The notes below the pieces were generated by a model. The model saw nothing but the letters and a program-made list of their open reading frames with translations. It was not told the DNA's origin and did no database searches. From Chloroflexota bacterium (GTDB lineage: Bacteria; Chloroflexota; Limnocylindria; Limnocylindrales; CSP1-4), in contig JAJYMP010000749.1 of assembly GCA_021786915.1 (NCBI GenBank), positions 1-18,063 of the forward strand: a stretch of 18,063 bases of DNA, given 5' to 3'. Shown here one piece after another: positions 1 to 16,672 of the stretch (the first letter of the stretch is position 1; every line of letters begins with the position of its first letter). A program made the translations under genes and the position numbers.

Positions 1-219
1 GCAGGGCGTCGACCCCCAATGACGCCTCCGGGAGGCGGGTATCTCGGGTGAATCCCCCGCAACGCCCCCGGGGGGCGGTTTGGGCGCTGAAGGTTGCGAA
101 ACGCGGCCTCCGGGGCCCCGGCCGTCGGATAGGCGCCTCCCGGGGGCGATATGGGCCGGGTGGCGACGTGGAGGCAGCCGCCGCAGGGCGTCGGGCGCTG
201 GCCGAAGGTGATCGCTGCG
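1..219. repeat. Non-coding run of short GC-rich palindromes
   Basis: No credible gene lies here; the open frames are Arg/Pro-rich shadows. Three 15-base hairpin sequences share the pattern CGCCYCC-N-GGRGGCG, at 23-37, 63-77 and 134-148 (the last has one G-T wobble pair). Each is followed within a few bases by a T-containing GGG box (TATCTCGGG, GTTTGGG, ATATGGG). A fourth, weaker GGCC/GGCC hairpin sits near 105-120. The stretch lies just downstream of the minus-strand acetyltransferase, so the hairpins could end its transcript. Their repetition suggests a small palindromic repeat family that may continue left of the window. Confidence 0.5.
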
Positions 220-1215: not shown

Positions 1216-1274
1216 GCACCGAGGATGGCACGTGCCGCTCGAGGCGTCGAGCGACGAGGCGCGCACCGGGTGGC
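1216..1274. promoter_or_regulatory. MFS-GNAT spacer with palindrome and small hairpin
   Basis: The 59-base gap holds a perfect 10-bp palindrome GGCACGTGCC (1227-1236), 11 nt before the acetyltransferase start, and a hairpin CGCTCG-N6-CGAGCG (1236-1253). The palindrome could be an operator and the hairpin a processing or attenuation site between co-transcribed genes. Both readings are inference. Confidence 0.3.
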
Positions 1275-3077: not shown

Positions 3078-3523
3078 GCGGGGATCTCCTCGGTCGGGGC
3101 GGTGATGCGGTCGAGCAGGTCGGCGAAGGCGGCGCGCTCTCGCTCGTCGAGGCTGAGCAGGCGGCGGACGAGGTCGCTCTGGCGAACCATGTCGAAGCTC
3201 TCGAGGGCCTCGAGGCCCGCGTTCGAGAGGCTCACGAGCGTCACCCTCCGGTCCTGCCGGTCGGCGGAGCGCTCCACCAGCCCGGCCCGCTCGAGGCGGT
3301 CAACGAGGTTCGTCGCCGACGATCGGCGCAGGCCCAGCTCGGCGCCGAGGTGGCTCACCGCGACGGAGCCCGTCAGCTCCAGCACGCGCAGGGCGTGGAG
3401 GTCGGCGAGGGCGATGCCGTGGCGGGCCGCGATCTCGCGCTGCAGCGGCTCCACGAGCGCGGCGGCGCGGAAGAACGCCGCGAACATGCGCCGGGTGGTG
3501 GGGTCGGCGTGAGGTGCTCCCAT
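3074..3523 (-). CDS. MarR-family transcriptional regulator
   Basis: A 149-residue winged-helix regulator. The core segment has the MarR recognition helix and wing: LGAELGLRRSSATNLVDRLE at about residues 70-90, then the wing motif SADRQDRRVTLVSLS at about 95-110, with flanking helices for dimerisation. MarR proteins usually repress a neighbouring efflux gene and release DNA on binding a phenolic or other small ligand; here the neighbour is the MFS pump whose start overlaps this stop. ATG 3523 is preferred over the much longer open frame because residues before it are low-quality, and because a -10 box TACTAT (3531-3536) lies 7 nt upstream, as at two other genes here. That implies a leaderless mRNA. 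A 9-bp inverted repeat spans this start and the -10 box, fitting autorepression. Confidence 0.92.
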   Translation of the reverse strand: MGAPHADPTTRRMFAAFFRAAALVEPLQREIAARHGIALADLHALRVLELTGSVAVSHLGAELGLRRSSATNLVDRLERAGLVERSADRQDRRVTLVSLSNAGLEALESFDMVRQSDLVRRLLSLDERERAAFADLLDRITAPTEEIPA

Positions 3524-3551
3524 GACGTGGATAGTACGACGAATGGGAGCA
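3515..3551 (-). promoter_or_regulatory. Leaderless marR promoter inside a 9-bp inverted repeat (candidate MarR operator)
   Basis: On the minus strand TACTAT (3531-3536) is followed by 7 nt and then the ATG (3523-3521), the spacing of a leaderless start. Perfect inverted arms TGCTCCCAT (3515-3523) and ATGGGAGCA (3543-3551), 19 bp apart, bracket the -10 box; the first arm contains the start codon. No good -35 hexamer is seen. A MarR dimer or pair of dimers binding here would block the promoter. Confidence 0.5.
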
Positions 3552-3955
3552 TCTCGCCGCCAGACACGAAGCGAGGCCCGATGGTCGCTGACCGGGGGCC
3601 TCGTTCGCGGAGGAGAGAGGAGGTGTCCGCAATGATGCACAGCCGTTTCTTGCGATCGCATGACAGCGAAACGGCCCCATGTGGCCACTTTGCTTCCGTG
3701 CGCGGCCGCCGGCACGCGCCCCCCTGGCGTTGTGCGCACAGTCCGGACATTCCGCGGCCATTGGCGCGCGAGACACCGCACCCGGGACGACCCTCGGCCG
3801 CTGAGCCGTGCAGCCCCGGCCTGCCGGGTGCTCCCGGCCTCGCTGGAGGCTCAGCTGCCGCTCCTTGGCACCTTCGGGGCCTCTCCGAAGCGCGGGATGC
3901 TCCTCGTCTTGTTCGGAAGGAGCGGAATCTGGCCCCTCGCGGCCGCCCCGAGCTA
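3552..3955. other. Gene-free stretch with dense hairpins (candidate structured RNA leader)
   Basis: No frame here looks like a real protein. A strong two-part hairpin CGAGGCCC/GGGCCTCG with inner GGTC/GACC lies at 3572-3603. Further left on the minus strand's 5' side are nested stems. An imperfect 12-pair arm joins 3795-3807 to 3848-3860 (core GCTGAGCC/GGCTCAGC). A perfect 9-bp stem CCGCTCCTT/AAGGAGCGG joins 3858-3866 to 3917-3925. CTTCGG/CCGAAG (3872-3877/3885-3890) lies inside the latter. GCCGGG (3823-3828) can pair either with 3815-3820 or with 3833-3838. Overlapping, mutually exclusive stems followed by a terminator-like hairpin before marR resemble a cis-regulatory leader. I could not match it to a known riboswitch class. 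Confidence 0.4.
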
Positions 3956-4891
3956 CTAAGACACCGCAGCAGCCCGCAGGAACGCCGGCAGCGGTACGCG
4001 TCCCTGGCTGATCGCCACCCCGAGCAGCACCACCGCCCCGCCCACCGGCTCGTGCCAGTTGAGCGGCTCGCCGAGGAGCAGCGCCCCCGCGGCGACCGAG
4101 ACCAGCGGCGTCACGTAGGTCACCGAGCTCGCGACCGTGCCGCCGGCGACGCCGACGATGTGCGTGTTCAGGACATACGCGACACCCGAGCCCAGCCCGC
4201 CCAGCGCCAGTATCCCGAGCACCGTCGCGGCCGACGGCGGGCCCGTCACGATGGGGCTGCCGAGCACCCACTCGACGACGACCACCGGCACCAGGAACAG
4301 GGCCGCCAGGGTGACCTGCCCGGCCGCGATCGCGATGGGCCCGTCGCCCGTTCCCACCAGGTGGCGCCGCGTCAGCGGGAACGCCAGGCCGTAGCAGGTG
4401 ATCGCGGCGATACAGGCGAGCACCCCCAGCAGCTCGCCGCCGCCGAGGCCCTCCCACACGCCCACCACGACGAGCACGCCGACGAAGCCGATGGCGAGGC
4501 CGACGATCCGCTGGCGGGTGGGCCGCTCCTCCGGGAAGGCCGCCAGCACGACGACGAGCGTCGCGAGCGGGGTGCAGGCGTTGATGATGCCGGCCAGGAT
4601 CGAGGAGACCTGCGTCTCGCCCCAGGCGAACAGCGTGAACGGGATGGAGCAGAACAGCAGCCCGACGATCGCGAGGTAGCCCCAGGTCCGGCGCCGGCGC
4701 GGCAGGCGCGTCCCCGTCAAGCGGACGATCGCCAGCAGCGTGACCGAGCCGATGGCGAGGCGCACGAACGCCACGCCCACGGGTGTCAGCGCCTCGAGGC
4801 CGAGCTTGATGAACAGGAACGAGCAGCCCCAGATGGCGCCGAGGGAGAAGAACAGCCAGGGCCAGGGGGTGGAACGCACGGTTCGCAGCAT
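3956..4891 (-). CDS. EamA/DMT-family permease
   Basis: A 311-residue inner-membrane protein with ten predicted helices in two repeated EamA units (about 10-145 and 155-300), the drug/metabolite transporter layout of RhaT, YdcZ and RarD relatives. The hallmarks are visible: WGCSFLFIKLGLEALTPV in helix 1 and its loop (the family's start of repeat one), the Arg in FVRLAIGS, and the closing ALLLGEPLNWHEPVGGAVVLLGV. Members usually export amino acids or other metabolites; the substrate cannot be inferred. ATG 4891 begins just before helix 1. There is no SD; a TAGGGT box lies 10 nt upstream (4902-4907) and a palindrome GGTTAACC at 4897-4904, so a near-leaderless start is possible. The gene stands alone between two non-coding stretches. 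Confidence 0.9.
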   Translation of the reverse strand: MLRTVRSTPWPWLFFSLGAIWGCSFLFIKLGLEALTPVGVAFVRLAIGSVTLLAIVRLTGTRLPRRRRTWGYLAIVGLLFCSIPFTLFAWGETQVSSILAGIINACTPLATLVVVLAAFPEERPTRQRIVGLAIGFVGVLVVVGVWEGLGGGELLGVLACIAAITCYGLAFPLTRRHLVGTGDGPIAIAAGQVTLAALFLVPVVVVEWVLGSPIVTGPPSAATVLGILALGGLGSGVAYVLNTHIVGVAGGTVASSVTYVTPLVSVAAGALLLGEPLNWHEPVGGAVVLLGVAISQGRVPLPAFLRAAAVS

Positions 4892-5150
4892 GAGGCGGTT
4901 AACCCTACCGGCGACTTCGCGGTTGCACGGCCGGTTCGTGACCGTGCCCCGTCAGCCTGTCAAGTCACCGCGCCGGGTTGGACTCTCGTGCCATGGATTC
5001 CGCCCAGCACCGTCAGATCTTGGCATGCGATGCGGCGAACCGACTGATTCGCGGCGGGCCCCCGGTCGCCGACGGTCGAAACTTGGCAGCAGAGGCCACA
5101 AATTGGCGCCTGTCACGGGAATCCATGGCCTGAAGGGCCACACCTTGACG
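4892..5150. repeat. Gene-free stretch with a 12-bp inverted repeat (arms 4990-5001 and 5118-5129)
   Basis: No gene is supported here. Perfect 12-bp inverted arms, GCCATGGATTCC and GGAATCCATGGC, enclose 116 bases. No target-site duplication is visible at the edges, so a miniature transposable element is only a possibility; a large RNA hairpin is the alternative. A smaller hairpin GCACGG/CCGTGC lies at 4925-4947, upstream of the permease. Confidence 0.4.
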
Positions 5151-5184
5151 GGTGGCGGCAAGGGCGCAAGCGCGCCGCTCCACC
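5151..5184 (-). terminator. Candidate terminator after the small secreted protein gene
   Basis: An outer stem GGTGG (5151-5155) / CCACC (5180-5184) encloses an inner stem GGCGC (5163-5167) / GCGCC (5172-5176) with a 4-base loop. It begins a few bases past the minus-strand stop at 5188. There is no U-tract, so this is a weak call. Confidence 0.35.
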
Positions 5185-5187
5185 GCC

Positions 5188-5537
5188 TCAGCGGCCCTCG
5201 CAGTCCACCCAGAACACCGTCGCCTGACCAGTGTTGCCGCTCCACACGACCGCCCCGGTGAAGCGGACGCCTGCCGCGCTGCTCAGCGGTGTGAGGCACG
5301 CCGGCCTGCCGTCCGTGTGCTCCGAGCCTGCGGCATCGCGCCAGACGACCGATGACACGATGCCGTAGGCGGTGCCGCCCGACCAGAGGGTGGCGACCTG
5401 CTGGCCGACGTGGCCGTCGCCGGTCATCGTGGCGGGGCGGACGCCGGCCACGCCCGCTGAACCGACCGCCAGGCCGGACAGGAAGGCCAAGACCGCGACG
5501 GCCAGCGGTGCGGCACGGTGACCAGCCGCTTGCGCAT
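5188..5537 (-). pseudogene. Small secreted protein with apparent frameshift in its signal peptide
   Basis: The frame ending at 5188 encodes about 100 residues from a TTG at 5490, beginning inside a hydrophobic segment (MAFLSGLAVGSAGVAGV, preceded in frame by PLAVAV). This reads as the core of an export signal lacking its basic N-terminus. The basic start is one frame over: ATG 5537 gives MRKRLVTVPHR and then nonsense. A one-base loss between 5521 and 5510 or so would join them into a normal signal peptide. The mature part (about 80 residues) has two cysteines, several Trp/Gly-Thr patches and ends DCEGR; I do not recognise the family. Either the gene is disrupted, the sequence has an error here, or the TTG start makes a shortened protein. 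It lies alone downstream of tetR in the same direction. Confidence 0.5.
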
Positions 5538-5594
5538 CTCAACCCCATGCTGGCCTCGCGTCGGGCGCCGAGCACGGGAGTTCGTTCTGCCACT

Positions 5595-5652
5595 GGGCGT
5601 GTCAGGGAACCCAGCGTCCCGGGTCACCACCCGGGGGGCGTGTCCAGGAACC
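5595..5652. repeat. Direct repeats flanking a strong hairpin (possible tetR terminator)
   Basis: Two near-identical words, GGGCGTGTCAGGGAACC (5595-5611) and GGGCGTGTCCAGGAACC (5636-5652), flank a perfect hairpin CCCGGGT-CACC-ACCCGGG (5618-5635). It lies about 100 bases past the tetR stop on its transcript side, so it may end that transcript. The flanking direct repeats are unexplained. The rest of 5538-5754 shows nothing gene-like. Confidence 0.45.
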
Positions 5653-5754
5653 GGAGCCCGCATAGCACGCTCGGGGGTAAGGCGGACTCCGGCGGATGGC
5701 GGTCGCCTCGAAGGGCCGGCGCGAGACGGGCCGCTGGCCGGAGCCGAGGGATCG

Positions 5755-6456
5755 CTACTCCGAGGCCGGCTTGGACACCGCGAGCAGCAGCAGCGGCAGC
5801 ACCGAGCGCGCCATCGCGTCGGGGTCCGCTCCCCCGCCTTGGAGCAGCGCCCGCCGCACGCTGCGCTCCACGATGGCGATCGACGCGTCGGCCACGTCGG
5901 ATGCCGACACCAGCAGCTCGCGGTTGCGGAACCGCGTCCCGTACTCGATGAACTCGGCGATGCGGGCGCGGAACCGCTGGTCCGCGTCGCGGAACTCGCC
6001 CGACACCTCGGGCTGCCGGATGGCGTTGATCTCGAGCTCGGTCTGGAGCATCGCAACCTGGCGGTCCACCGGCATCGCCCGCAGGATCCGCTCCACGACC
6101 GGCGCCATGGCGCCCAGCTCCTCGCCGGGAGCGGCGTTGTCGGCCGCGGCGAAGTCGGCCAGGGTGAGGGCGAGGTTCGCGTCCAGGCTGGCGATGACGC
6201 GCGCGTGCTCGCGGGCCACCAGCGAATCGACCAGCTCGGTCTTGTCGGCGAAGTTCGAGTAGAACGCCCCGCGCGTGAAGCCGGCTCGCTCGCAGATGTC
6301 CTCGACGGACGAGCCGATCACGCCGCGCTCGGCGAACACCGCCAGCGCCGCGTCCAGCACGCGCTCTCGCGTGGCCTCGCGGCGCGCCGTGCGGGACGGC
6401 TCCCTGACCTCGGTCACCCGCGTCTCGACCTCGATACGGTGGTGTATTCGATACAT
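5755..6456 (-). CDS. TetR-family transcriptional regulator
   Basis: A 233-residue regulator. The N-terminal TetR DNA-binding domain is clear at about residues 22-75: RERVLDAALAVFAERG leads into the helix-turn-helix GSSVEDICERAGFTRGAFYSNFADKTEL. The rest is an all-helical ligand and dimer domain with no obvious named subfamily. It is divergent from the giant MmpL-YhgE gene, the usual arrangement for a repressor of an exporter, and semi-palindromic sites with GATAC half-sites lie between them and over this start. ATG 6456 is chosen as the nearest ATG before the domain; GTG 6417 (giving MTEVREPSRTARRE) is a realistic alternative, as no strong SD decides it. The longer frame from 6528 would run through the operator and is unlikely. 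Confidence 0.9.
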   Translation of the reverse strand: MYRIHHRIEVETRVTEVREPSRTARREATRERVLDAALAVFAERGVIGSSVEDICERAGFTRGAFYSNFADKTELVDSLVAREHARVIASLDANLALTLADFAAADNAAPGEELGAMAPVVERILRAMPVDRQVAMLQTELEINAIRQPEVSGEFRDADQRFRARIAEFIEYGTRFRNRELLVSASDVADASIAIVERSVRRALLQGGGADPDAMARSVLPLLLLAVSKPASE

Positions 6457-6484
6457 TGACGCATCGGATACGCATTCGTATCCT
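6432..6484 (+). promoter_or_regulatory. Promoter of the MmpL-YhgE gene overlapping a TetR operator
   Basis: On the plus strand TTGACG (6456-6461), a 17-base spacer and TATCCT (6479-6484) form a near-consensus sigma-70-type promoter, with transcription expected near 6491 and a leader of about 78 nt. A perfect inverted repeat GGATACG-CATT-CGTATCC (6466-6483) covers the spacer and -10. Further GATAC/GTAT half-sites occur at 6432-6437, 6444-6450 and 6449-6454. The same segment holds the tetR start, so one bound TetR could control both directions. Confidence 0.7.
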
Positions 6485-6568
6485 ACCCGAGCGGCCACCC
6501 GCGCCGCAACCCCGCCGATTCCCATCACCGCAGGTCGGCGTGTCAGGCACCGACCGTGGAGGCAGATC

Positions 6569-9500
6569 GTGTTCGAAGGCCTTGGCTCGAGGACCTACCG
6601 GTGGCGATACCTCATCGTGGTGGTCTGGATCGTGGCGATGGTCGCCTCGGTCAAGCTGGCGCCCTCGCTCGCTGACAGCGCCTCGTCCGACCAGGCCGCG
6701 TTCCTCCCCGCAACGGCGCCCTCGTCGCTCGCCAACGACGCGCTCGAGAAGGCGTTCCCGGGCGCGACCGCCACATCGAGCGCCACCCTGACGTTCTCGC
6801 GCGACACGGGCCTCACCGACGCCGATGCCGCCTACCTCGACGCGACTGCCGCCTGGGTCCGCAGCCCCCAGGCGCCCGCTGAGCTCCGCGATGCCGTCAC
6901 CGGCACGGCCTCGGCGACCTCGCGCCCCGAGCTCGAGTCGATGCTCAAGAGCCCCGACGGCCAGCTCCAGCTCCTGCTGATCGACCTCAACGTGTCGTCG
7001 GCCGGCGATGCGGCCTCGGCCGTCGTTGGAGAACTGCGGGCCCACATCGCGCAGACCGCGCCAGCGGGGCTCGTCGTCCACGTCACCGGCACCGCCGGCA
7101 TCACCTCGGACTACCTCAACGCGGTCAAGGCCGGCACCGACAGCACGACCAGGGTCACGATCATCCTCGTCCTGGTCATCCTGCTGCTGATCTACCGGGC
7201 GCCGCTGGCGGCGATGGTGCCGCTGGTCACGATCGCCGGCGCCTACGTCGTCTCGCGGGGCGTGCTGGGGCTGCTGGCGGCGGCCGGCTGGAAGGTCAGC
7301 TCGCTGCTGGACACGTTCCTCGTGGTCATGGTGTTCGGCGTCGGCACGGACTACGCGATCTTCCTGATCAGCCGGTTCCGGGAAGAGGTCAGCGGCGGCG
7401 TGGACTGGCACGACGCCTCGCGGACCACCGTCCGGCGGATCGGCGCGGTGATCAGCGCCTCGGCGGCGACGGTCATCGTGGGCCTGGGCGCGATGGCGTT
7501 CGGCCAGTTCGAGATGATCAAGTCCACCGGGCCCGCGATCGCGGTGGCCATCGCGATCACGCTCGTCGCCGGCCTCACGCTCGCCCCCGCCCTGCTCGGC
7601 ATCTTCGGCCACTACCTGTTCTGGCCGATGCACACGCGGCCCGCGGCCGAGGGCGAGCCCGGCGGGTTCTTCGCCAGGCTGGCCGCGGGGGTCTCGCGCC
7701 ACCCGGGCGTCATCACGCTGGCGCTGATCGTGGCGCTCGGGCTGCCCGCGATGTTCGTGCCGCAGATGCACACCAACTTCGACACGCTCGCCGAACTGCC
7801 GGACAGCTCCGACGCGCGGCAGGGGTTCGACGTCGTGGCGGCGCACCTGGGCAAGGGCAAGCTGGTCCAGTCGACGGGCCTCATCGAGAGCCCCTCGGGC
7901 GACATGCTCGCCCCCGCCAACCTCGCCCGGCTGCGCGACACCGTCCTGGCACTCCAGTCCAGCCCCGGTGTGTCGCAGGTCACGAGCCTCGTCACGCCCA
8001 ACGGCGACGGCAAGGTGCCCGACGGCTTCCGCCCCTCGATCCAGCTGGGGACGATCGGCGACGCGTTCTCCGCCGACTCGTCGTCCTCGTCGTCGTCATC
8101 GGCCGCGGCCAGCGGCTCCAGCTCCTCGCTCCTGGACCCCAAGCTCACCGACGGCCTGGACCAGGCGCTCAACTACGTCGGGGCGCTGGGCGCGTCCTAC
8201 CCCGATGTCGCCGGCCGGGCCGAGTACCGCGCCGCCCGCCAGTCGATCACCGACGCGCTGGACCTCGTCGCGCGGGTCAAGAAGCAGACGGTCGTCGCCA
8301 CCCAGCTGCGTACGCTCGCCGCCGCGCTCACCGCCCCCGCGGCCGTGGCGAGCGGCAGCAGCGCCAGCAATTCCGACGCCTCGCTGATGTCGAAGTACCT
8401 CGACGAGCTGGCCACGGCGTATCCGGAGGTCCGCCCCCTGACGTCGTACCGTGACGCCGTCCGGAGCGCGGCGTCGCTCGCCACCAAGCCATCGGCCACC
8501 GCGGCCGTCGACACCGCGAATGCCATGAACGCGCTGGCCGTCCACTTCGACAGCCAGCCCGACTCCCGGCTCTCGCCCAAGAGCCTCGCCAACACGTCGT
8601 CCGCACTCGAGCTCCAGCGCGAGGCGAAAGCGACCTTCGCGGCGATCCCGAGCGCCTTCCACTCGCTCGCGTCGGTGTTCGCGACGCGGCCCGACGACCT
8701 GTTCGTCCCGGTGGGCCTGGGCGGCGACAACGCCCAGAAGGTGACCGACGCGGTCAACGCGTTCATCTCCGCGGACCGCACGGCCACCAGGTTCTACCTG
8801 GTCAGCGCGGACGACCCGTACGCCACGACCTCCTTCGACACGGTCCGCAACGCCCAGCGGTCCCTCGCCGCCGCGGCACCCGGCTTCGGGCCGGGGGCAC
8901 AGGCCTACCTCGGCGGCCCGACCGCGCAGTTCGCCGACGTCCAGACGACGCTCGAGAACGACTTCAACCGCGTCGGCGTCATCACGGTGCTGGGCATCTT
9001 CCTGGTGCTGGTGCTGCTGCTCCGCGCGATGGTGGCGCCGCTGTACCTGGTGGGCACAGTCCTGCTCTCGTACCTGTCCGCCGTCGGCCTGTCCGCCTTC
9101 CTGTTCCAGGACGTGCTCCACCAGGCCGGCGTCAGCTTCTACCTGCCGCTGATGGTGTTCGTGCTGCTGGTCGCGCTGGGATCGGACTACAACATCTTCC
9201 TGATGAGCCGGGTGCGCGAGGAGAGCGAGCACCGCTCGATCCGCGACGGCATCCGGATCGCGTCGGGCCACACCGGGTCCGTGATCACCTCGGCCGGGCT
9301 CATCCTGGCTGGGACGTTCGGGTCGATGGCCACGGCTCCGCTCGTGGTGCTGTTCCAGGTGGGCGTGGCGGTCGCGATCGGGGTGCTGATCGACACGTTC
9401 GTCGTGCGCTCCATCCTGGTGCCCGCGATCACGACGCTGGTGGGCGATCGGGCGTGGTGGCCGTCGGGGTCGCGGTTCAGCGGCCCGGCGCTGGCGCCCG

Positions 9501-12352
9501 CGGGGGCGGCTGGCGGCGCGGCCAGCGGCGTCTCGGCTGCGGCCGGCGGCGGCGTATCGGCTGCGGCCGGCGGCAGCGTCTCGGCTGCGGCCGGCGCCGC
9601 TTCGGCTGCGGCGGGTGGCGGCGTCTCGGCTGCGGCCGGCGCCGCTTCGGCTGCGGCGGCCGGCGGCGGTTCGGCCGAGCCGGTCCTCGTCGGGACCGCG
9701 GCACGTGCCGAATCCACGACGGGTGACGAGATTGTCCGGACTGGTCTTGTCGCGTTCGAGCCGGCGTTCGAGCCGGCGCTCGACGGCGGGGCGCTCCCCG
9801 GCCGGGCGCGACGATCGCTGGTCCGTGCGGCTGCAGCACTCGGCCTGGCCATCCTGGTCCCGGTCACGTTCGCGGGGCTGGTGACCTGGGCGTGGCAGCC
9901 ACAGCCCGGCGCCGTCACGATCCAGGCAGCCGTCGTCAACGCCGACACGGGGACGACGGTCACCGCCGGCGACGGCTCCGCCAAGCAGCTCACGCTGGGC
10001 AAGGACATCAGCGACGATCTGGTCGCGGGCGGGTCGGGCAGCACGTCCGGCGCCTCGGACCCGGCCTCGAGCGGCCTCGGCGCAGCCGGCGTCGCGTGGA
10101 CCGCCACGGACGCGAAGGCAGCGGCCGATGGGCTCGCATCCGGCCAGTACGCGGCCGTCCTGACGATCCCCGCCGACTTCTCGCAGGACATCGCGGCGAT
10201 CCGCGCCGGCACGTCCGGCAGCACCCCCGCGGCGACCCTGCACCTGGAGACGGGGAGCGGCGGCGGCAACGTCGCCACTGCGGTCGCCCGTTCGGTGAGC
10301 GACGCGATCACCGCGTCCGCGACCCGCAATGCCACCGCCTCCTACGTCGAGGACGTCCTGCTCGGCGTGTCCACCGCCCAGAACGACGTCACGCACGCGG
10401 CATCCTCGGCGAAGGACGTGGCGAACAGCGCCACCTCCCTCGCGAGTTCGGCCAGCGGCGTCAACGCGGTGTCGGGCGAGATGGTGTCCGGGCTCGGCAA
10501 GCTGGCGTCGGGGACCTCGGCGTCGGTCAGCGGCACGGCAAGCCTCGTCGATGCCACCAGCCAGCTCGCCTCGGGCACAAAGCAACTCGCCGCGGCTGCC
10601 TCGACGCTCGCGGCGGGCGCCAGCAAGACCGCCTCCGGCGCCTCGGCGCTCGCAACCGGGGCATCGTCGCTCGCCAGCGGCCTCGTCGCCCTCGAAGCGC
10701 ACACCAGGACGCTGCCGGCGCAGACCTCGCAGCTCGCCTCCGGGGCATCGGACCTCGCGGCGGGCGTGTCGCAGACCGTCTCGGGCATCGAGTCGCTCTC
10801 GGCCGGGCTCCAGACGCTGGCCAGCAACACCACCGGTCTGGGCAGCCAGGTCCACGCGCTCGACGTCGGGGCGGCAAGCCTCGCCAGCGGTGCCCACGAC
10901 CTCGAGACCGGCGCGTCGCAGGCAGCGGCGGCCGCGGCCGGCGTGTCGACCGGGGCCAGCGGCCTCAAGAGCGCCGTCGATGCGTACACCGGCGCGGTCG
11001 ATCAGCTTGCCGCCAACTGCACCGGGATGGGCGGTGGCGCAACCGTGTGTGGTGCGCTCACCGGCATCGCGAACGGCTCGGCAACCGTGCGCGACACCGC
11101 GGCAACCGTCGCCTCGGGCGCGAGCCAGGCATCTGCTGCGGCCGCGGGCGTCGCCAGCGGGGCCGTGTCCACATCCAGCGGCGCAGACAGCCTGCACAGC
11201 GGGTTGTCCCAGCTCGCGGCCGGCGCGCCGGCGATCGAATCCGGGATCGCCTCGTCGGCCGCCGGGGCGTCTGCCCTGGCCGCGGGCGCTGCGCAGCTGA
11301 CGCCCGGCGCCAGCCAGCTCGCCGACGGCACCAGCCAGCTCGCCGCCGGCATGCCGCAGCTCGTCGACGGCGTGTCGGCCCTGAGCTCGGGCGCCTCGCA
11401 GACGGCATCGGGCGCCACCCAGCTCTCGACCGGCGCGAGCGCCCTCGCAAGCGGCGCCGACAAGCTGGCGTCCGGCCTCGACACGACGGCAGCCGGCGCG
11501 ACGAAGCTGGCGTCCGGGACGAAGACGGCGGCCAGCGGTGCCACCCAGCTGACCGACGCCATCAACCAGGCCCTCGACGGGGCCCGGCTGGTACAGGCGG
11601 AGACTGGCCTGCTCGCCACCGACGGCACGTCGCTCTCGAGCGATGCCTCGAAGGTCTCCGACTCGCTCACGACGACGGCGGGCTCCATGCCCGCAACGGG
11701 CACCGCCGACCGCTCGCAGGTGGCCGCGCGCGTGGCCGACCCGGTGACCGTGCAGACCACGGCCGCCGACGGCAGCCCGGCGGGGATCGCGCCGCTGGCG
11801 ATGGTCCTGGCGCTCTGGCTGGGGGCGCTGGCGGCGCTGCTGGCCGTGCCGTCGATGGGCCGCGGGCGGGGCTGGTGGACCAGGCCGGTGGGCGCGGTCG
11901 GGCTGGCGGCGGTCGCCGGGCTCGTCGCGGCGGGGCTGATGGTCGCCGGGCTCGACCTCGGCGTCGGGATCGCCATCGCGCGCCTCCCGATGCTCGTGGC
12001 CATGAGCCTGCTGACCGCGGCGGCCTTCGCGGTGCTCATCGGGGCGCTGGAGTCGGCGTTCGGGCTCCGCGGCTGGGTGACTGCCCTGCTGCTGGCCGGG
12101 CTCGGCGTCGCAGCGTCGGGCTACCCGTTCGGCGTCGACGCGCTACCGGGGCCGCTCGCGTTCATCCGGCCGCTGCTGCCGACCTCGTGGGCCATCGACG
12201 CGATCCGCGCCTGCATCGAGAGCGCGAGCTCCTCGGTGTCGGTGGGCGTGGCGGTGCTGGTCGCGTGGCTGATCGTGGGCACCCTCGTGGTGGTGGCAGT
12301 CACCATGAGCGTGGAGCGGCGCACCGCTTCCCGGTCGCGCCTGACGGCATAG
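6569..12352 (+). CDS. MmpL/RND exporter fused to a YhgE/Pip-type stalk and membrane domain
   Basis: A 1,927-residue membrane protein. GTG 6569 is chosen because GGAGG (6558-6562) sits 6 nt upstream and helix 1 follows at residues 13-31; earlier in-frame codons lie upstream of the promoter. Residues 1-965 form an MMPL exporter: TM1, a first extracytoplasmic loop (32-195), TM2-7 with relay pair D261-Y262 (GVGTDY), a long second loop (about 400-800) with an eight-Ser tract at 504-511, and TM8-12 with D873-Y874 (GSDY). A repeat linker (about 985-1050) follows. Residues 1084-1927 match YhgE/Pip: a TM (1084-1110), the AAVVNADTG motif and GQYAAVLTIPADFS, an Ala/Ser-rich LxxG heptad stalk (about 1275-1690) interrupted by C1484/C1494, and a six-TM ABC-2-like end (from about 1738). 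It probably exports a lipid or surface polymer by proton motive force. The fusion is unusual; a sequencing join is possible but the frame is clean throughout. Confidence 0.9.
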   Translation: MFEGLGSRTYRWRYLIVVVWIVAMVASVKLAPSLADSASSDQAAFLPATAPSSLANDALEKAFPGATATSSATLTFSRDTGLTDADAAYLDATAAWVRSPQAPAELRDAVTGTASATSRPELESMLKSPDGQLQLLLIDLNVSSAGDAASAVVGELRAHIAQTAPAGLVVHVTGTAGITSDYLNAVKAGTDSTTRVTIILVLVILLLIYRAPLAAMVPLVTIAGAYVVSRGVLGLLAAAGWKVSSLLDTFLVVMVFGVGTDYAIFLISRFREEVSGGVDWHDASRTTVRRIGAVISASAATVIVGLGAMAFGQFEMIKSTGPAIAVAIAITLVAGLTLAPALLGIFGHYLFWPMHTRPAAEGEPGGFFARLAAGVSRHPGVITLALIVALGLPAMFVPQMHTNFDTLAELPDSSDARQGFDVVAAHLGKGKLVQSTGLIESPSGDMLAPANLARLRDTVLALQSSPGVSQVTSLVTPNGDGKVPDGFRPSIQLGTIGDAFSADSSSSSSSSAAASGSSSSLLDPKLTDGLDQALNYVGALGASYPDVAGRAEYRAARQSITDALDLVARVKKQTVVATQLRTLAAALTAPAAVASGSSASNSDASLMSKYLDELATAYPEVRPLTSYRDAVRSAASLATKPSATAAVDTANAMNALAVHFDSQPDSRLSPKSLANTSSALELQREAKATFAAIPSAFHSLASVFATRPDDLFVPVGLGGDNAQKVTDAVNAFISADRTATRFYLVSADDPYATTSFDTVRNAQRSLAAAAPGFGPGAQAYLGGPTAQFADVQTTLENDFNRVGVITVLGIFLVLVLLLRAMVAPLYLVGTVLLSYLSAVGLSAFLFQDVLHQAGVSFYLPLMVFVLLVALGSDYNIFLMSRVREESEHRSIRDGIRIASGHTGSVITSAGLILAGTFGSMATAPLVVLFQVGVAVAIGVLIDTFVVRSILVPAITTLVGDRAWWPSGSRFSGPALAPAGAAGGAASGVSAAAGGGVSAAAGGSVSAAAGAASAAAGGGVSAAAGAASAAAAGGGSAEPVLVGTAARAESTTGDEIVRTGLVAFEPAFEPALDGGALPGRARRSLVRAAAALGLAILVPVTFAGLVTWAWQPQPGAVTIQAAVVNADTGTTVTAGDGSAKQLTLGKDISDDLVAGGSGSTSGASDPASSGLGAAGVAWTATDAKAAADGLASGQYAAVLTIPADFSQDIAAIRAGTSGSTPAATLHLETGSGGGNVATAVARSVSDAITASATRNATASYVEDVLLGVSTAQNDVTHAASSAKDVANSATSLASSASGVNAVSGEMVSGLGKLASGTSASVSGTASLVDATSQLASGTKQLAAAASTLAAGASKTASGASALATGASSLASGLVALEAHTRTLPAQTSQLASGASDLAAGVSQTVSGIESLSAGLQTLASNTTGLGSQVHALDVGAASLASGAHDLETGASQAAAAAAGVSTGASGLKSAVDAYTGAVDQLAANCTGMGGGATVCGALTGIANGSATVRDTAATVASGASQASAAAAGVASGAVSTSSGADSLHSGLSQLAAGAPAIESGIASSAAGASALAAGAAQLTPGASQLADGTSQLAAGMPQLVDGVSALSSGASQTASGATQLSTGASALASGADKLASGLDTTAAGATKLASGTKTAASGATQLTDAINQALDGARLVQAETGLLATDGTSLSSDASKVSDSLTTTAGSMPATGTADRSQVAARVADPVTVQTTAADGSPAGIAPLAMVLALWLGALAALLAVPSMGRGRGWWTRPVGAVGLAAVAGLVAAGLMVAGLDLGVGIAIARLPMLVAMSLLTAAAFAVLIGALESAFGLRGWVTALLLAGLGVAASGYPFGVDALPGPLAFIRPLLPTSWAIDAIRACIESASSSVSVGVAVLVAWLIVGTLVVVAVTMSVERRTASRSRLTA
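9533..9680 (+). repeat. Tandem repeat encoding the Ala/Gly/Ser linker of the fusion protein
   Basis: TCGGCTGCGG recurs at 9533, 9557, 9581, 9602, 9626 and 9647, that is, at spacings of 24, 24, 21, 24 and 21 bases. It encodes alternating SAAAGGGV octads and SAAAGAA heptads. All spacings are multiples of three, so the frame between the MmpL and YhgE halves is kept whatever the copy number. Confidence 0.85.
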
Positions 12353-12355
12353 GGG

Positions 12356-12445
12356 GGTCGCCATCGGCCCGGGAGGCCGCCGTCGGCGCAGGCGCGGACT
12401 GGTTGCCACCGGCGCCGGGCGAGGTTGCCATCGGCCCCGGGGGCG
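12356..12445. repeat. Three short GCCAYCGGC repeats between convergent genes (possible terminator)
   Basis: Three related words of the form GGTYGCCAYCGGCSCCGGG start near 12356, 12401 and 12423, filling the gap between the convergent stops at 12352 and 12475. The first contains a hairpin CGGCC-CGGGA-GGCCG (12365-12379). They may serve as a two-way terminator. No gene is seen here. Confidence 0.4.
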
Positions 12446-12474
12446 GGAGGGCTGCGGTCCGGGCCGGCGCCCGC

Positions 12475-13245
12475 TCAGTTCAGGCGGTCGGACAGCGAGG
12501 CACGGTCGGGGACGTACAGCCCGAGGCGACGGTCGAGCAGGTCCAGCTCGCGGCGCAGCAGGCCGTCGAGGTCGCGCAGACGCTCCTCGGCCGTCGACGC
12601 CTCGAGCAGCGCCTGCTTGCGGTCGAGTTCGGCCTGGACGATCCCGGTCAGCAGGAACGACAGCGCCGACGGGTCGTCTGGCACGCGGAGCGACTCGACC
12701 GTGACCTCCTCGGTGGCGTCCACCTGGACCTCGGCCGCCACCTCCTCGACCGGGTCGTCGTCGACCTCGACCTCAACCTGGACATCGACGGGCAGGCCCA
12801 GCTCGCCGTCGCGCGGCTGGAGCTCGCGCAGGTATTCGATGAACCGGGCGCCGACTCGCTGGACCAGACGCCCGGCGACCTCCTCGTCGCCCACCGCGTC
12901 GGGGAGCGGCTCCACGTCGGCCACCAGGTACGGCTCGGAGGCTGCGTCCACCTCCAGCACGCTGAAGCGGCCCGTGCCCACCACGAGGAGGTCCCAGCGG
13001 CCGTCGGCGTACTTGCTCGCTTCGCGGATCTCCGCGAACGTCCCGACTCCGGCGATCGCGATCTCGGTCGCCACGCCATGGCGGAGCGCAACCTCGGACC
13101 CCTCGCGGATGAGCACCACGCCGAAGGGCGTCGACGAGTCGAGGCAGCGGCGGACCATGACGCGGTAGCGCTCCTCGAAGATGTGGAGCGGCAGGGCGAT
13201 CCCCGGCGCCAGGACGGTGTGGAGGGGGAAGAGCGGTAGGCGCAC
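12475..13245 (-). CDS. LON substrate-binding (N-terminal) domain protein
   Basis: A 256-residue cytoplasmic protein that is all LON N-domain (PF02190 type) plus a helical C-terminus, without the AAA+ or protease parts of Lon. The opening LPLFPLHTVLAPGIALPLHIFEERYR is the family signature, followed by FGVVLIREGSEV and ERY/DGRWDLLVVGTGRF. Such stand-alone proteins are widespread and mostly uncharacterised; a substrate-recognition or adaptor role is inferred. Residues about 150-181 form a strongly acidic Val/Glu/Asp insertion, and the C-terminal 50 residues are Leu/Arg/Glu-rich and look like a coiled coil. GTG 13245 is supported by the family start (MRLPLFPL) and by TACTCT (13253-13258) exactly 7 nt upstream, a leaderless arrangement. 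It is convergent with the exporter gene and 244 nt downstream of the Fe-S carrier gene. Confidence 0.88.
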   Translation of the reverse strand: MRLPLFPLHTVLAPGIALPLHIFEERYRVMVRRCLDSSTPFGVVLIREGSEVALRHGVATEIAIAGVGTFAEIREASKYADGRWDLLVVGTGRFSVLEVDAASEPYLVADVEPLPDAVGDEEVAGRLVQRVGARFIEYLRELQPRDGELGLPVDVQVEVEVDDDPVEEVAAEVQVDATEEVTVESLRVPDDPSALSFLLTGIVQAELDRKQALLEASTAEERLRDLDGLLRRELDLLDRRLGLYVPDRASLSDRLN

Positions 13246-13258
13246 GAATCGAAGAGTA
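13243..13258 (-). promoter_or_regulatory. Leaderless promoter of the LON-domain gene
   Basis: TACTCT (13253-13258), then 7 nt, then the GTG start (13245-13243). The spacing equals that at marR and the thiolase gene, and there is no SD. No -35 match is seen. Confidence 0.55.
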
Positions 13259-13408
13259 AGGCGGGTCGCGATTCGGGGACGCGGCGGCGAGGGCGCGCGG
13301 CCTGGTCGATCACGTTGCGTTCGCGACGCAGCCGGGCTGCGGCGCCGACCAGAACGGGCGGTGCGCCGATGGCGGTGGGGCCGATGGCGCTCCGCACCGA
13401 GGAATCAT

Positions 13409-13433
13409 CGAGCCGCCGGTGGCCGGCGGCTCG
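13409..13433 (-). terminator. Strong hairpin downstream of the Fe-S carrier gene
   Basis: A perfect 11-bp stem (13409-13419 with 13423-13433; CGAGCCGCCGG arm) and 3-base loop lie 57-81 nt past the minus-strand stop at 13490, followed on that strand by ATGATTCCT, only modestly T-rich. A second hairpin GGCGCC-TGG-GGCGCC lies nearer the stop at 13458-13472, and GCAGCC-G-GGCTGC at 13328-13340. Nothing gene-like is seen in 13246-13489. Confidence 0.55.
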
Positions 13434-13489
13434 GGATCGGGCGGTTGGGGTTGTTCAGGCGCCTGGGGCGCCCCACGACCTCGGTGCGG

Positions 13490-13870
13490 TCAGTGAGAGC
13501 AGGCTCGCGGCGTGCCCTCGTCCTCGGCGGTTCGGAACGAGGAGCCGCAGCCGCAGCCGGAAACCGCGTTGGGATTGACGACGGTGAACCCGGCGCCCAT
13601 CAGGGTGTCGACGTAGTCGATGGACGAGCCGTTGAGCAGCGGCACGCTGTTGCTGTCGACGTAGACCCGCACGCCGTTGGTCTCGAGGACGTTGTCGTCC
13701 TCGGCGGGCTGGTCCTCGAGCATCATCCCGTACCGGTAGCCCGAGCAGCCGCCCGAGTAGACGTACACGCGCAGGCCGATCGCGGGACTCGGCTCTTCCT
13801 TCGTCAGCTCGCGAAGCTTGGTCGCGGCGGCGTCGGTCAGATTGACGATCGAGGGCTGGGCGTCGATCAC
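13490..13870 (-). CDS. erpA: A-type iron-sulfur carrier (ErpA/IscA/HesB family)
   Basis: A 126-residue carrier that receives Fe-S clusters from the assembly scaffold and passes them to target enzymes in the cytoplasm. The three cluster-binding cysteines are in the family pattern: C42 in GGCSGYRYG, then C106 and C108 in SGCGCGSSF, with NLTDAAATKLREL at the start and GFTVVNPNAV before the Cys pair. An 18-residue tail after the CGCG motif ends in ACSH and is longer than usual. GTG 13870 is chosen because AAGGAG (13879-13884) lies 8 nt upstream and the domain begins at once; a longer open frame to 13996 has no such support. A promoter lies at 13925-13953. ErpA and IscA cannot be separated by sequence alone, so the symbol is a family-level label. 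Confidence 0.92.
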   Translation of the reverse strand: MIDAQPSIVNLTDAAATKLRELTKEEPSPAIGLRVYVYSGGCSGYRYGMMLEDQPAEDDNVLETNGVRVYVDSNSVPLLNGSSIDYVDTLMGAGFTVVNPNAVSGCGCGSSFRTAEDEGTPRACSH

Positions 13871-13924
13871 AGCGGGTTCTCCTTCGGGTCGCGGGCCCCG
13901 GACCGCCCGGCCCGGAGCTCGTGA

Positions 13925-13953
13925 ATCGTACGCACCGCAACGGATTTCGTCCA
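13925..13953 (-). promoter_or_regulatory. Sigma-70-like promoter of the Fe-S carrier gene
   Basis: On the minus strand TGGACG (13948-13953), a 17-base spacer and TACGAT (13925-13930) match the bacterial consensus at 4 of 6 bases each. Transcription near 13918 would give a leader of about 48 nt carrying the AAGGAG site, in contrast to the leaderless neighbours. Confidence 0.5.
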
Positions 13954-14010
13954 CACCCATGGCGAAATTGCACGGCGGCGCCCAACGGCCCGGCACCGCG
14001 GCGCGAAATG

Positions 14011-14160
14011 ACGCTGACCGAGGCGGCTGACCGAGGCGGCCGACGAGGCGCCCCCGCCGAGGCGGCCGACGAGGCGCCCCCGCCGAGGCGGCCGACCGAG
14101 CGGCCCCGGCGAGGCGGCTGACCGAGGCGGCCGACGAGGCGCCCCCGCCGAGGCGGCGTG
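14011..14160. repeat. 26-bp GC-rich minisatellite
   Basis: A 26-base unit beginning GAGGCGGCCGACGAGGCG occurs identically at 14033-14058, 14059-14084 and 14124-14149, with diverged units between (for example 14085-14110) and GAGGCGGCTGACC half-units at 14020 and 14111. It is non-coding and lies between the Fe-S carrier promoter and the 95-bp repeats. Confidence 0.8.
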
Positions 14161-14229
14161 AGTCGGGTCAGACTCATTCGAGCTGGAGCCGAGCGTGGGA
14201 GGAGGCCCAGACTGGCACTTCGAGCGGCC
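14135..14229 (+). repeat. 95-bp direct repeat, copy A
   Basis: Identical over 95 bases to 14260-14354 (offset 125, 30-base gap). Contains the semi-palindrome TGAGTC-N6-GACTCA (14159-14176). Confidence 0.9.
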
Positions 14230-14259
14230 CCGCCGAGGCGGCTGACCGAGCGGCCCCGG

Positions 14260-14354
14260 CGAGGCGCCCCCGCCGAGGCGGCGTGAGTCGGGTCAGACTC
14301 ATTCGAGCTGGAGCCGAGCGTGGGAGGAGGCCCAGACTGGCACTTCGAGCGGCC
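14260..14354 (+). repeat. 95-bp direct repeat, copy B
   Basis: Identical to 14135-14229. Its GAGCGTGGG (14316-14324) pairs perfectly with CCCACGCTC at 14356-14364, and its GAGTC-N6-GACTC semi-palindrome recurs in inverted form in the adjoining segment. Confidence 0.9.
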
Positions 14355-14440
14355 ACCCACGCTCACTGACACCGGAATTGAGTCGGACCTGACTCGCGTT
14401 CGCGCGCAAGGTGGAGGGCCAGGCGGAGGGCAGGCTGGGC
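14355..14440 (-). repeat. Diverged inverted third copy of the repeat, then thiolase 3' spacer
   Basis: Read on the minus strand, 14356-14397 aligns with the inner half of the 95-bp repeat: GAGTCAGGTCCGACTC against GAGTCGGGTCAGACTC, then TTC, then GAGCGTGGG. With copy B it forms a long imperfect hairpin just downstream of the thiolase stop, so it may also act as that gene's terminator. Confidence 0.55.
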
Positions 14441-15667
14441 CTACGCCTCCACCCGCTCGACCACGGTCGCGATCCCCTGCCCCACGCCGATGCACATCGC
14501 GGCCACCCCGAACCTGCCGCCCGTCTGCCCCAGCTCGTGGACCAGCATCGTGAGCAGGCGCGCCCCCGAGGCGCCCAGCGGATGGCCCAGCGCGATCGCC
14601 CCGCCATTGGGGTTGACCTTGGCCAGGTCGAGGCCAAGCTCGTCGGCACAGGCGACCGACTGGCTCGCGAACGCCTCGTTGATCTCGAACAGGTCGATGT
14701 CGGCCACGGCCAGGCCCGCCCGCGCGAGCGCCTTGCGGATCGCAGGCACGGGGCCGATCCCCATGACGTCGGGGTGGACCCCGGCGACGGCGGTCGACAC
14801 CACCCGGGCCATCGGCCGAAGCCCCAGGGCGCGCGCCCGCTCCGCTTCGACCAGAAGCAGCGCCGACGCGCCGTCGTTGATCCCGGAGCTGTTGCCCGCC
14901 GTCACGGTCCCGTTCTTGGCGAACGCCGGCCGGAGCGCGGCCAGCGCCTCGAGCGAGGTCTCGCGCGGGTGCTCGTCGCGGTCCACCACCGTGACCGCGC
15001 CCTTCTTGCCGGGCACGCTCACCGGCACCAGCTGCGCGGCGAATCGACCGGCCGCGATCGCGGCCGCGGCCCGCTGCTGGCTCTCGAGCGCGAACGCGTC
15101 CTGGCGCTCGCGCGAGACGCCGTACTGCTCGGCGACGCACTCGGCCGTCTCCCCGAGCGAGATCGGCGGGTACGCCTCGCGCATCTTCGGGTTCACGAAC
15201 CGCCAGCCGAGCGTCGTGTCCTCGAGCTGACGCGCCCCGCGCTCGTACGCCGCCTCCGGCTTGAGCATCACGTACGGCGCCCGGCTCATCGACTCCACGC
15301 CGCCCGCGATGAACACCTCGCCGTCGCCCGCGCCGATCGCGTGCGCCGCGGAGTTGACCGCCTGGAGACCGGAGCCGCACAGCCGGTTGACCGTCAGCCC
15401 GGCCACCTCGACCGGAAGGCCGGCGAGCAGCAGCGCCATCCGGGCCACGTTGCGGTTGTCCTCGCCCGCCTGGTTCGCACAGCCCATGATCACGTCCTCG
15501 ACGAGGGCCGGGTCGAGCGAGGTCCGCTCGACGATCGCGCGGATGACCAGGGCGGCGAGGTCGTCGGGCCGAACCGAGGCGAGCGCGCCGCCGTACCGCC
15601 CGATCGGGGTGCGGACGGCGTCGATGATCCAGGCCTCGTGGTGGGTGCGCTGCGGTTGGGTGGGCAT
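14441..15667 (-). CDS. Acetyl-CoA acyltransferase, PcaF/PaaJ-like thiolase
   Basis: A 408-residue degradative-type thiolase that cleaves a 3-oxoacyl-CoA with CoA to give acetyl-CoA and a shortened acyl-CoA. The catalytic set is complete: nucleophile C97 in [11 protein letters not shown]362 in [14 protein letters not shown], and C392 in MCIGVGQG. The stretch [17 protein letters not shown], the [10 protein letters not shown] loop and WRFVNPKM closely resemble 3-oxoadipyl-CoA thiolases (PcaF, PaaJ) of aromatic catabolism, but no other gene of that pathway is near, so a general fatty-acid or acetoacetyl-CoA role stays open. ATG 15667 is chosen over 15700 because TACAAT (15675-15680) lies exactly 7 nt upstream, which would give a leaderless mRNA. 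Divergent from the lipoprotein operon. Confidence 0.94.
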
Positions 15668-15706
15668 GTGGGGAATTGTAGGAGGCGCGGGGTGGTGCAT
15701 TACAAT
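15665..15706. promoter_or_regulatory. Divergent overlapping promoters (thiolase / lipoprotein)
   Basis: Minus strand: TACAAT (15675-15680) then 7 nt then the thiolase ATG. Plus strand: TACAAT (15701-15706), giving transcription near 15713 toward the lipoprotein. The two boxes form an inverted repeat ATTGTA/TACAAT, and each lies near the -35 position of the other (TTGTAR, 19 nt away). Firing in one direction should interfere with the other. Confidence 0.5.
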
Positions 15707-15820
15707 CTGCGCAGAACGCGCCTAGGCGGGGGCTCTGGCGCCGTTCCGGGTCGATTGCACCGCGACGCTCGTGCCAGGCGCTCGCGCTGATCGCACCCCC
15801 GTCAGGCCCCTGCGCGGGAT

Positions 15821-15843
15821 CTGCGCTCCGCAAGCGCAGGGAG
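15821..15843 (+). promoter_or_regulatory. Hairpin touching the lipoprotein ribosome binding site
   Basis: CTGCGCT (15821-15827) pairs with AGCGCAG (15833-15839) around a 5-base loop. The 3' arm covers the first two bases of the AGGGAG site (15838-15843), which is 8 nt before ATG 15852. The rest of the roughly 139-nt leader (15713-15851) is GC-rich with no small ORF I would support. Confidence 0.35.
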
Positions 15844-15851
15844 ACCTCGAC

Positions 15852-16643
15852 ATGTCCGCGGGCCGCCTGCCGATCAGAGCCGGTCGGATTGCGGCTGCCC
15901 TGCTGGCCCTCGCGGTCGCCTCGGCGTGCGGCGCCTGCTCGCCCGCTGCCAGCCCCGGCTCCGCGTTGGCCGCGAGCGTCCTCGCGTCGCTGCCCGTGCC
16001 GGCCTCGGCCACGTTGACCGTCGGCGCCGACGGGCCCGGCGTGGACGGCGACTCCCGCTTCTACGCCTACACCTCGACGGGAGCCCCCGGGGCCGAACTC
16101 GCCGCGTACGACGCGGCGCTGCGGGCGGCGCACTACCAGCCGATGCAGCGGGCGGGTGCGTGGACGGCCTACCTCCGCTCGGGCGTCACCGTCTGGGTCT
16201 CCGTCTCGGCCGACGGCCCGCCCACCTCGATCGTCGTGCTCGTCGCGGCCGATCCGACCTCCGCGGCCGTGCCCTCCCAGCTCGCCGCCGACCCGTCGGC
16301 GACCGCGCTCCTCGCCGACGTGCCCTCCGACAGGCCGGCCACCCCCGAGCCGCAGAGTCGTCCTGCACCCGGACCCTCCCGATCTCCAGCCCCGGTCTCG
16401 GGCGCCACGCCCGTCCCGGCCGCGGGTTCACCGACGCCCGCTGGCTCGCCGGAGCCCGCCGCCTCGCCCGAGCCGACCGCCAAGCCGCAGCCGAGCAGCA
16501 AGCCCAAGCCGAGCCACCCCGCCAAGCCCTCGCCGAAGCCGACGTCCAAGCCGAAGCCCACGCCCAGCCCGACGCCCACGCCCACGCCCACGCCCAAGCC
16601 GAAGCCCCGCCATCTGGCGGAAAGCGGCGGGACCAGCCAGTGA
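15852..16643 (+). CDS. Putative lipoprotein with Pro/Lys/Ser/Thr-rich C-terminal tail
   Basis: A 263-residue exported protein of unknown family. A basic start (MSAGRLPIRAGRI) and hydrophobic core (AAALLALAVASAC) end in a lipobox-like ASAC, so the Cys would be lipidated at the outer face of the cytoplasmic membrane. Residues about 45-135 form a small soluble domain (DSRFYAYTSTGAPGAELAAY, then AGAWTAYLRSGVTVWVSVS and a hydrophobic strand); I do not recognise it. From about 150 on it is low-complexity, rich in Pro, Ser, Thr and Ala, then basic KPKPS and PTPTPTP repeats, a typical wall-spanning tail. ATG 15852 has AGGGAG 8 nt upstream. It lies just before a response regulator and sensor kinase, so it may be an accessory sensor or an output of that system. 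Confidence 0.8.
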   Translation: MSAGRLPIRAGRIAAALLALAVASACGACSPAASPGSALAASVLASLPVPASATLTVGADGPGVDGDSRFYAYTSTGAPGAELAAYDAALRAAHYQPMQRAGAWTAYLRSGVTVWVSVSADGPPTSIVVLVAADPTSAAVPSQLAADPSATALLADVPSDRPATPEPQSRPAPGPSRSPAPVSGATPVPAAGSPTPAGSPEPAASPEPTAKPQPSSKPKPSHPAKPSPKPTSKPKPTPSPTPTPTPTPKPKPRHLAESGGTSQ

Positions 16644-16672
16644 CCATGAACGGGGGATCCAGCCAGTGACCA
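16633..16672 (+). repeat. 14-base duplication of the lipoprotein/regulator junction
   Basis: CCAGCCAGTGACCA occurs at 16633-16646 and 16659-16672. The first copy carries the lipoprotein stop TGA (16641-16643) and a GTGA overlap-type start that soon meets a stop; the second carries the response-regulator GTG (16666). Confidence 0.85.

Follow-up and report, generated by a model that had tools for sequence, protein, structure and literature searches.

We analysed an 18,063-nucleotide stretch of a Chloroflexota genome (assembly GCA_021786915.1, contig JAJYMP010000749.1, positions 1 to 18,063 of the forward strand), hereafter the window, in which one gene joins an MMPL transporter to a YhgE/Pip protein in a single chain. 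On balance, its product is probably a single-chain hybrid of a resistance-nodulation-division (RND) pump and an ABC-2 exporter, driven by protons, free of an ATPase and equipped with a coiled-coil hairpin about 30 nm long that has cysteines at its tip. It is apparently the one-gene counterpart of an actinobacterial two-gene system in which the ATP-using part appears to be worn down. The original prediction had described a single chain of an MmpL-type exporter with a long extracytoplasmic stalk beside it and export as the likeliest role, and all of this is supported by our analysis. The surface display that it also suggested is unsupported: family scans of the chain detected no cargo or anchoring domain. 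No ATPase domain was detected in the chain.

Architecture of the fused protein

The predicted uninterrupted frame from MMPL into YhgE/Pip was confirmed; it translates without a stop, and its GC content by codon position (0.68/0.59/0.93) fits a real gene. Searches of the translation with hidden Markov models gave matches to each of PF03176, TIGR03061, TIGR03057 and TIGR03062. The gene and its parts are as follows.

6569-12352 (+): MMPL::YhgE single-chain gene, 1,927 amino acids, GTG start
6569-9472 (+): MMPL half, MmpL4/5-like RND type, residues 1-968, 12 transmembrane (TM) helices in the model
7349-7354 (+): D261-Y262, TM4 relay pair, invariant in 33/33 aligned MMPLs
8138-8683 (+): helical insert of the second extracytoplasmic loop, residues 524-705, several shorter helices in the AlphaFold2 secondary structure
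9185-9190 (+): D873-Y874, TM10 relay pair, invariant in 33/33 aligned MMPLs
9473-9811 (+): Ala/Gly/Ser-rich linker, residues 969-1081, predicted to be disordered (predicted local distance difference test, pLDDT, about 24-32 over most of it)
9827-9883 (+): first TM of the YhgE half, residues 1087-1105, from hydropathy
9833-10357 (+): YhgE/Pip N-terminal domain (TIGR03061), residues 1089-1263, from the profile and the Foldseek match to 3cni
10364-11710 (+): stalk of 449 residues (1266-1714), LxxG heptad hairpin
11018-11050 (+): hairpin tip in mid-stalk with C1484 and C1494, between arms of 218 and 220 residues; Cys invariant in 24/24
11711-12319 (+): C-terminal membrane domain of the YhgE half (TIGR03062), five TM, predicted fold ABC-2/ABCG-like

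The MMPL half matched PF03176 with 382 bits (cut-off 20.5) in two stretches of the chain, and its model has the MmpL fold; the TIGR00833 score of 505.8 bits lies under the curated cut-off of that subfamily (874.7). The complete 12-TM transporter that had been proposed is borne out by the model, hydropathy at the threshold used giving 11 helices. Both Asp-Tyr pairs read in the original prediction are present, and we take their role to be proton relay. With one N-terminal and five C-terminal helices of the YhgE half, the chain totals 18 TM. The linker between the halves is built of near-repeats of the type GVSAAAGGG/AASAAAGGG. Its length ranges from 20 to 137 residues across homologues (89-113 in the closest ones); given this variability and the low complexity, the exact length here could be wrong, which leaves the fusion itself unaffected.

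To our knowledge, YhgE/Pip proteins have no settled function; they lie at the cell surface, and most of what is known of them concerns phage infection. The YhgE half is a diverged relative: TIGR03061 scored 66.8 bits at residues 1089-1263 (cut-off 96.15) and TIGR03062 scored 68.0 bits at residues 1721-1913 (cut-off 102.2), both with E of about 1e-18, so that the half remains unnamed by NCBI's own rule. The motifs AVVN (at 1121) and GQYAAVLTIPADFS (at 1192) were found as foreseen, as was a separate N-terminal TM, seen as a hydropathy peak. The C-terminus was expected to hold six TM, but hydropathy shows five peaks; hydropathy and the modelled helices together give one N-terminal and five C-terminal TM, which is presumably the usual YhgE/Pip topology.

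In the Foldseek comparison, the N-terminal domain was matched to 3cni, an ABC type-2 domain, with a probability of 1.00 and an E of 0.096; none of the matches to the YhgE model reached E<=0.001. Among the structure matches, coiled-coil and helical pore proteins were set aside as generic helical similarity. PF12698 reached 19.3 bits in the chain, below its gathering threshold of 31.6, and is recorded in precomputed annotation for 39 of the 120 listed homologues. The predicted structure suggests, with low confidence, that the fold of the YhgE half resembles the membrane domain of ABC-2 exporters.

Conservation of the fusion

Our protein sample comprised 121 sequences, i.e., the query and 120 listed out of at least 327 matches, each heading a separate 90%-identity cluster. 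Homologues with the same domain order had been called for as a check, and MMPL, YhgE-N and YhgE-C occur in that order in 87 of the 121; the remainder have MMPL and YhgE-N (n=15), MMPL and YhgE-C (n=1) or MMPL alone (n=18). Four homologues (P0005, P0031, P0068 and P0069) are encoded on contigs of 0.95-4.2 Mb. A homologue with 91% identity is named Candidatus Limnocylindrales, and the closest contigs are labelled Chloroflexi. The sequences P0108-P0121 are MMPL proteins of 1,317-1,483 amino acids with a large additional internal region between both MMPL parts, and the named ones belong to Lactiplantibacillus.

Within the class of the window, which we take to be Limnocylindria, MMPL and YhgE share one frame in 9 of 177 genomes, and no verified split of the two was seen in these 177; two copies are cut by contig ends, and one genome has a short, unlinked YhgE. 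In a phylum-wide sample of 400 Chloroflexota genomes, the only matches with open frames longer than 900 amino acids came from two (G002 and G013), both of the window's class. A protein search with the YhgE N-domain alone, restricted to 0.55-1.75 times the full length, gave at least 41 matches, all with PF03176.

A joining of two genes by an assembly or frame artefact, to which the low-complexity linker might point, has a negligible probability. It is ruled out by the relatives carrying the same fusion: the order is shared by 87 proteins from separate clusters, and the trees described below give single clades.

The stalk and its predicted hairpin

The proposed LxxG heptad stalk was recovered by TIGR03057 with 57.1 bits (cut-off 18.6). 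In the 87 complete chains its length is 371-617 residues (median 449), and in 85 of them it holds exactly two Cys, 8-11 residues apart. Of the 86 chains in which the pair could be used, 54 have arms of 218 and 220 residues on its two sides. Arm lengths tend to covary (r = 0.93 over 25 distinct pairs, a few very long ones strengthening the correlation). Of 38 non-zero changes in arm length, 21 are divisible by seven, against about 5 expected by chance with kinship not removed. Three fused proteins (P0020, P0021 and P0023) have stalks of 617 residues, in which both arms are longer by exactly 84 residues, or 12 heptads.

AlphaFold2 predicted two long helical arms with a turn at the cysteines, with low confidence (pLDDT 66; predicted template modelling score 0.33). 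The stalk would fit an antiparallel coiled-coil hairpin with a disulfide at its tip; calculated at 0.15 nm per residue, each arm would be about 30 nm long. The coiled coil of MmpL5 forms a hairpin of smaller size with a disulfide at the tip, and its deletion abolished pump function (PMC12501195).

Partners of YhgE in Actinobacteria

We examined 60 actinobacterial YhgE windows, hand-chosen from 129 places in 70 genomes and containing 62 YhgE open reading frames (ORFs). The earlier statement that YhgE/Pip proteins are normally separate proved too simple: an ORF resembling an ATP-binding cassette (ABC) ATPase lies directly upstream on the same strand in 32/62, an MMPL ORF in 6/62, and 20 more MMPL-YhgE pairs are described below. 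Neither partner was present for 14 long-stalk and 10 short-stalk ORFs. Twenty control windows were taken from the same genomes; a single ABC ORF occurs in one of them and an MMPL ORF in none, while the 60 YhgE windows contain a canonical ABC ORF in 7 cases and a YhgE-type ABC ORF in 36. The control scan for ABC genes included Walker A and signature motifs, the 60-bit model built from YhgE-linked genes alone being biased against ordinary ABC genes.

When 12 of the upstream genes were tested for Pfam ABC_tran, it was above the cut-off in four (L117, L123, L134 and L227), below it in L190 and absent in seven; the family was missed because most of these genes are degenerate. Annotated records call the upstream genes of L226 and L227 ABC ATP-binding. 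At L115-L122, L126-L131, L133, L134, L137 and L139-L144, the ABC-ATPase-like genes preceding YhgE are without a standard Walker A (e.g., GPSGSGRT), and judging by their sequences such genes may possibly encode pseudo-ATPase subunits. Walker A is retained as GRNGSGKT upstream at L123-L125 and L132.

Some YhgE genes of this sample stand apart. At L145, L147 and L149, YhgE genes with long stalks stand in tandem pairs that lack an ATPase-like or MMPL ORF immediately upstream; their products possibly form heterodimers. Short YhgE-like proteins with 8-59 residues between the domains (L151-L154, L178-L180, L182-L184, L104, L113 and L114) likewise have no such ORF directly upstream, and they cluster together in trees.

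In the six MMPL-YhgE operons, the stop and start codons overlap as ATGA (five) or TGATG (one), and a TetR gene is divergent at five and on the same strand at the sixth. Their MMPL proteins bear 204-267 additional C-terminal residues homologous to the ABC-ATPase-like genes: the comparison gave 98.9% for four tails together, 98.5% for L177 and 99.8% for L189 (E 3e-15 to 7e-30), against 0.1-0.5% for controls. The L189 tail is a clear ABC_tran (56.9 bits) with an intact Walker A; PF03176 and PF00005 occur together in 99 of 120 listed relatives of this MMPL, whose close homologues are named Aeromicrobium. In the fused chain the linker occupies the position of these tails, and a remnant of a nucleotide-binding domain (NBD) there was considered and rejected (hhalign 0.1-0.2%).

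A reciprocal genome search was conducted with the end of the L189 MMPL plus its NBD, and 20 unseen loci were hand-chosen among the best long-frame matches listed. A YhgE ORF lies directly downstream in 20/20 (that of L248 runs past the fetched end), and in 17/20 the stop codon of the MMPL gene overlaps the start codon of YhgE. A Cys pair near mid-stalk is present in 16 of the 19 YhgE proteins with both ends, and 17/20 tails match the NBD set at >=93%, those of L245, L249 and L250 at merely 35-50%. The six operons, found via YhgE, and these 20 loci make up 26 two-gene systems in 23 genomes. The ATPase-like tail is clear in 23/26; the standard Walker A is present in 6/26 and lacking in 20/26, and the Asp-Tyr pair is present in TM10 of 26/26 and in TM4 of all 25 that were readable there.

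Nothing was added when 198 actinobacterial genomes were searched more narrowly with the YhgE of L177, and tblastn of plasmids with the YhgE half of the window gave no match. With an operon YhgE, tblastn returned 51 plasmid records; among six regions read, the two annotated ones had an ABC-ATPase gene directly upstream.

Phylogeny of the two halves

The trees were inferred by short searches with SH-aLRT support only. Those of YhgE include 26 and 16 hand-picked fused proteins of the 87, the second also taking 23 of the 26 operon YhgE proteins (L245, L248 and L249 failed the domain filter). The fused YhgE halves form one clade (support 99 with 26 rows and 100 with 16 rows), nested in a group supported at 99-100 with every operon YhgE in the trees and L190-L193, three of which have an ATPase-like gene upstream. 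The fused MMPL halves also form one clade (100), but its sisters are stand-alone Chloroflexota MMPLs (100) and not the operon MMPLs; in this tree the operon MMPL L217, the same gene as that of L177, is labelled "paralog". The MMPL of L013, whose contig is labelled Myxococcales, is nested among Chloroflexota MMPLs, and the contig is probably mis-binned.

A simple fusion of the actinobacterial operon was rejected, as the MMPL halves belong to different lineages although the YhgE halves group together. Related YhgE proteins are thus tied to two MMPL lineages, which would speak in favour of a functional MMPL-YhgE pairing; a partner swap or independent pairing may explain it.

Neighbouring genes

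Two genes flank the fused gene in the window.

5755-6528 (-): divergent TetR-family regulator gene, PF00440 51.6 bits
12475-13245 (-): gene with a LON substrate-binding domain, downstream in L001 and L002 too; thought not to be part of the system

A homologous divergent TetR gene is present at six of the seven proven fused loci with upstream DNA (there is none at L003). The divergent regulator suggests that the substrate acts as inducer. Nine fused loci and the window, scanned in the DNA surrounding the gene, contain no ABC ORF, whether canonical or YhgE-type. The scanned window genes included no recognisable MmpS gene and no match to families of the type VII secretion system (T7SS). A thiolase gene close to 3-oxoadipyl-CoA thiolases (14441-15700, -) has no evident link to the exporter. 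The same holds for 16156-18062 (+), where a response regulator precedes an open frame that matches CHASE4 weakly; this frame, truncated at the edge of the window, probably encodes the histidine kinase of the regulator.

Proposed mechanism and alternatives

In the hybrid exporter that we favour, the MMPL half would use the proton gradient to draw a hydrophobic or amphiphilic substrate out of the membrane. The YhgE halves would associate in the manner of ABC-2 domains, and their hairpins would bundle as a rail or tube carrying the molecule out through the wall, serving a thick wall as the coiled-coil tube of MmpL5 is proposed to serve mycobacteria. The TetR regulator would respond to the substrate. 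The proton drive would have replaced an ATPase that appears degenerate in most two-gene systems of actinobacteria and is missing from the fused chain.

More tentatively, the protein may represent a new class of transporters: an ABC-2-type exporter would have given up its ATP motor for the proton-driven motor of an RND pump, and the cysteine-tipped hairpins would together span the wall as a conduit for a hydrophobic molecule of the envelope. The stages of such an exchange could be preserved in living genomes: an ATPase-like gene with YhgE; MMPL::ATPase-like with YhgE, where Walker A would be eroding and the proton relay remains intact; and the MMPL::YhgE of Limnocylindrales without an ATPase. 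An order in which the ATPase decays and the relay is retained would fit the sequences of the 26 systems and the NBD-less fusion. Since the MMPL of the fusion belongs to another MMPL lineage, such an exchange would have taken place more than once.

The YhgE half might instead be only a scaffold or anchor, its hairpin tethering the MMPL pump to the wall or to partners and the fusion merely setting the stoichiometry. The long hairpin with matched arms and a conserved tip would suit this role, and the lack of a standard Walker A in most NBD-like partners implies that the ABC-2 part may no longer transport. We consider it unlikely all the same, as a tether would require neither the entire membrane part that is retained nor an MMPL gene directly preceding YhgE in 26/26 systems (six of them found through YhgE). 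It is still less probable that the chain has remained an ABC exporter, with a separately encoded ATPase binding the YhgE half and the MMPL as an accessory. The ABC-ATPase-like partners of its relatives point that way, as does the Walker A kept in six MMPL tails and four upstream genes, but the nine fused loci and the window are without an ABC ORF in the DNA covered, and the linker is without a detectable NBD remnant.

We would give very little credence to a tethered surface-display or EsaA/YueB-like secretion machine, or to a phage-receptor-type protein on an exporter. PMC4999554 describes the PIP proteins of Lactococcus and Enterococcus as phage-infection proteins, and PMC9600267 describes YueB/EsaA as a subunit of T7SSb and the SPP1 receptor. 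The kinship with YueB and EsaA that had been proposed holds only as a weak TIGR03929 (EsaA) match of 29.9 bits, far under the cut-off of 122, and no T7SS family accompanies it among the scanned window genes; the use of a surface protein by phages is uninformative on its own function.

Relation to known systems and significance

Compared with MmpL4/MmpL5 (RND/HAE2) and MmpS of mycobacteria, the long hairpin here lies in the YhgE half that has been added, a series of shorter helices is predicted for the insert in the MMPL loop, six extra TM are present, and no MmpS gene was recognised among the scanned window genes. The N-terminal TM with TIGR03061, the LxxG stalk and the TIGR03062 helices are shared with YhgE/Pip proteins (B. 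subtilis YhgE, Lactococcus PIP and Enterococcus PIP_EF), from which the fused protein differs by its position behind an MMPL, its divergence (both profiles under cut-off) and the mid-stalk Cys pair. It resembles ABC-2/ABCG exporters (PF12698; Pdr5, ABCG2 and PmtCD) in the fold predicted, with low confidence, for the membrane domain and in the coupling of its relatives to ABC-ATPase-like genes, but has no NBD, a stalk of about 450 residues inserted and an RND pump joined to it. EsaA/YueB likewise bear a large extracytoplasmic region on a multi-TM protein, with a distant profile match but no T7SS context seen here.

The actinobacterial MMPL::NBD-like and YhgE systems (e.g., L189 and L231) share the order of MMPL before YhgE, a nearby TetR gene in many cases, the common YhgE group and, in most, the mid-stalk Cys pair. 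Unlike the fused gene, these systems, known from sequence, consist of two genes, and their MMPL has an NBD-like tail and belongs to another lineage.

YhgE, MMPL and ABC-2 proteins are each known already, but their combination looks new; no description of an MMPL-YhgE or MMPL-NBD pairing was found in the accessible portions of the open-access literature. Overall, YhgE can be linked to ABC-2 exporters by the predicted fold and the repeated ATPase-like coupling, and to MMPL pumps by operon and fusion, which provides a testable function for these proteins as long-stalked export proteins of thick cell walls. If a proton pump did replace the ATPase, two transporter superfamilies would have exchanged motors in nature. 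The single-chain version would be handy for structure work.
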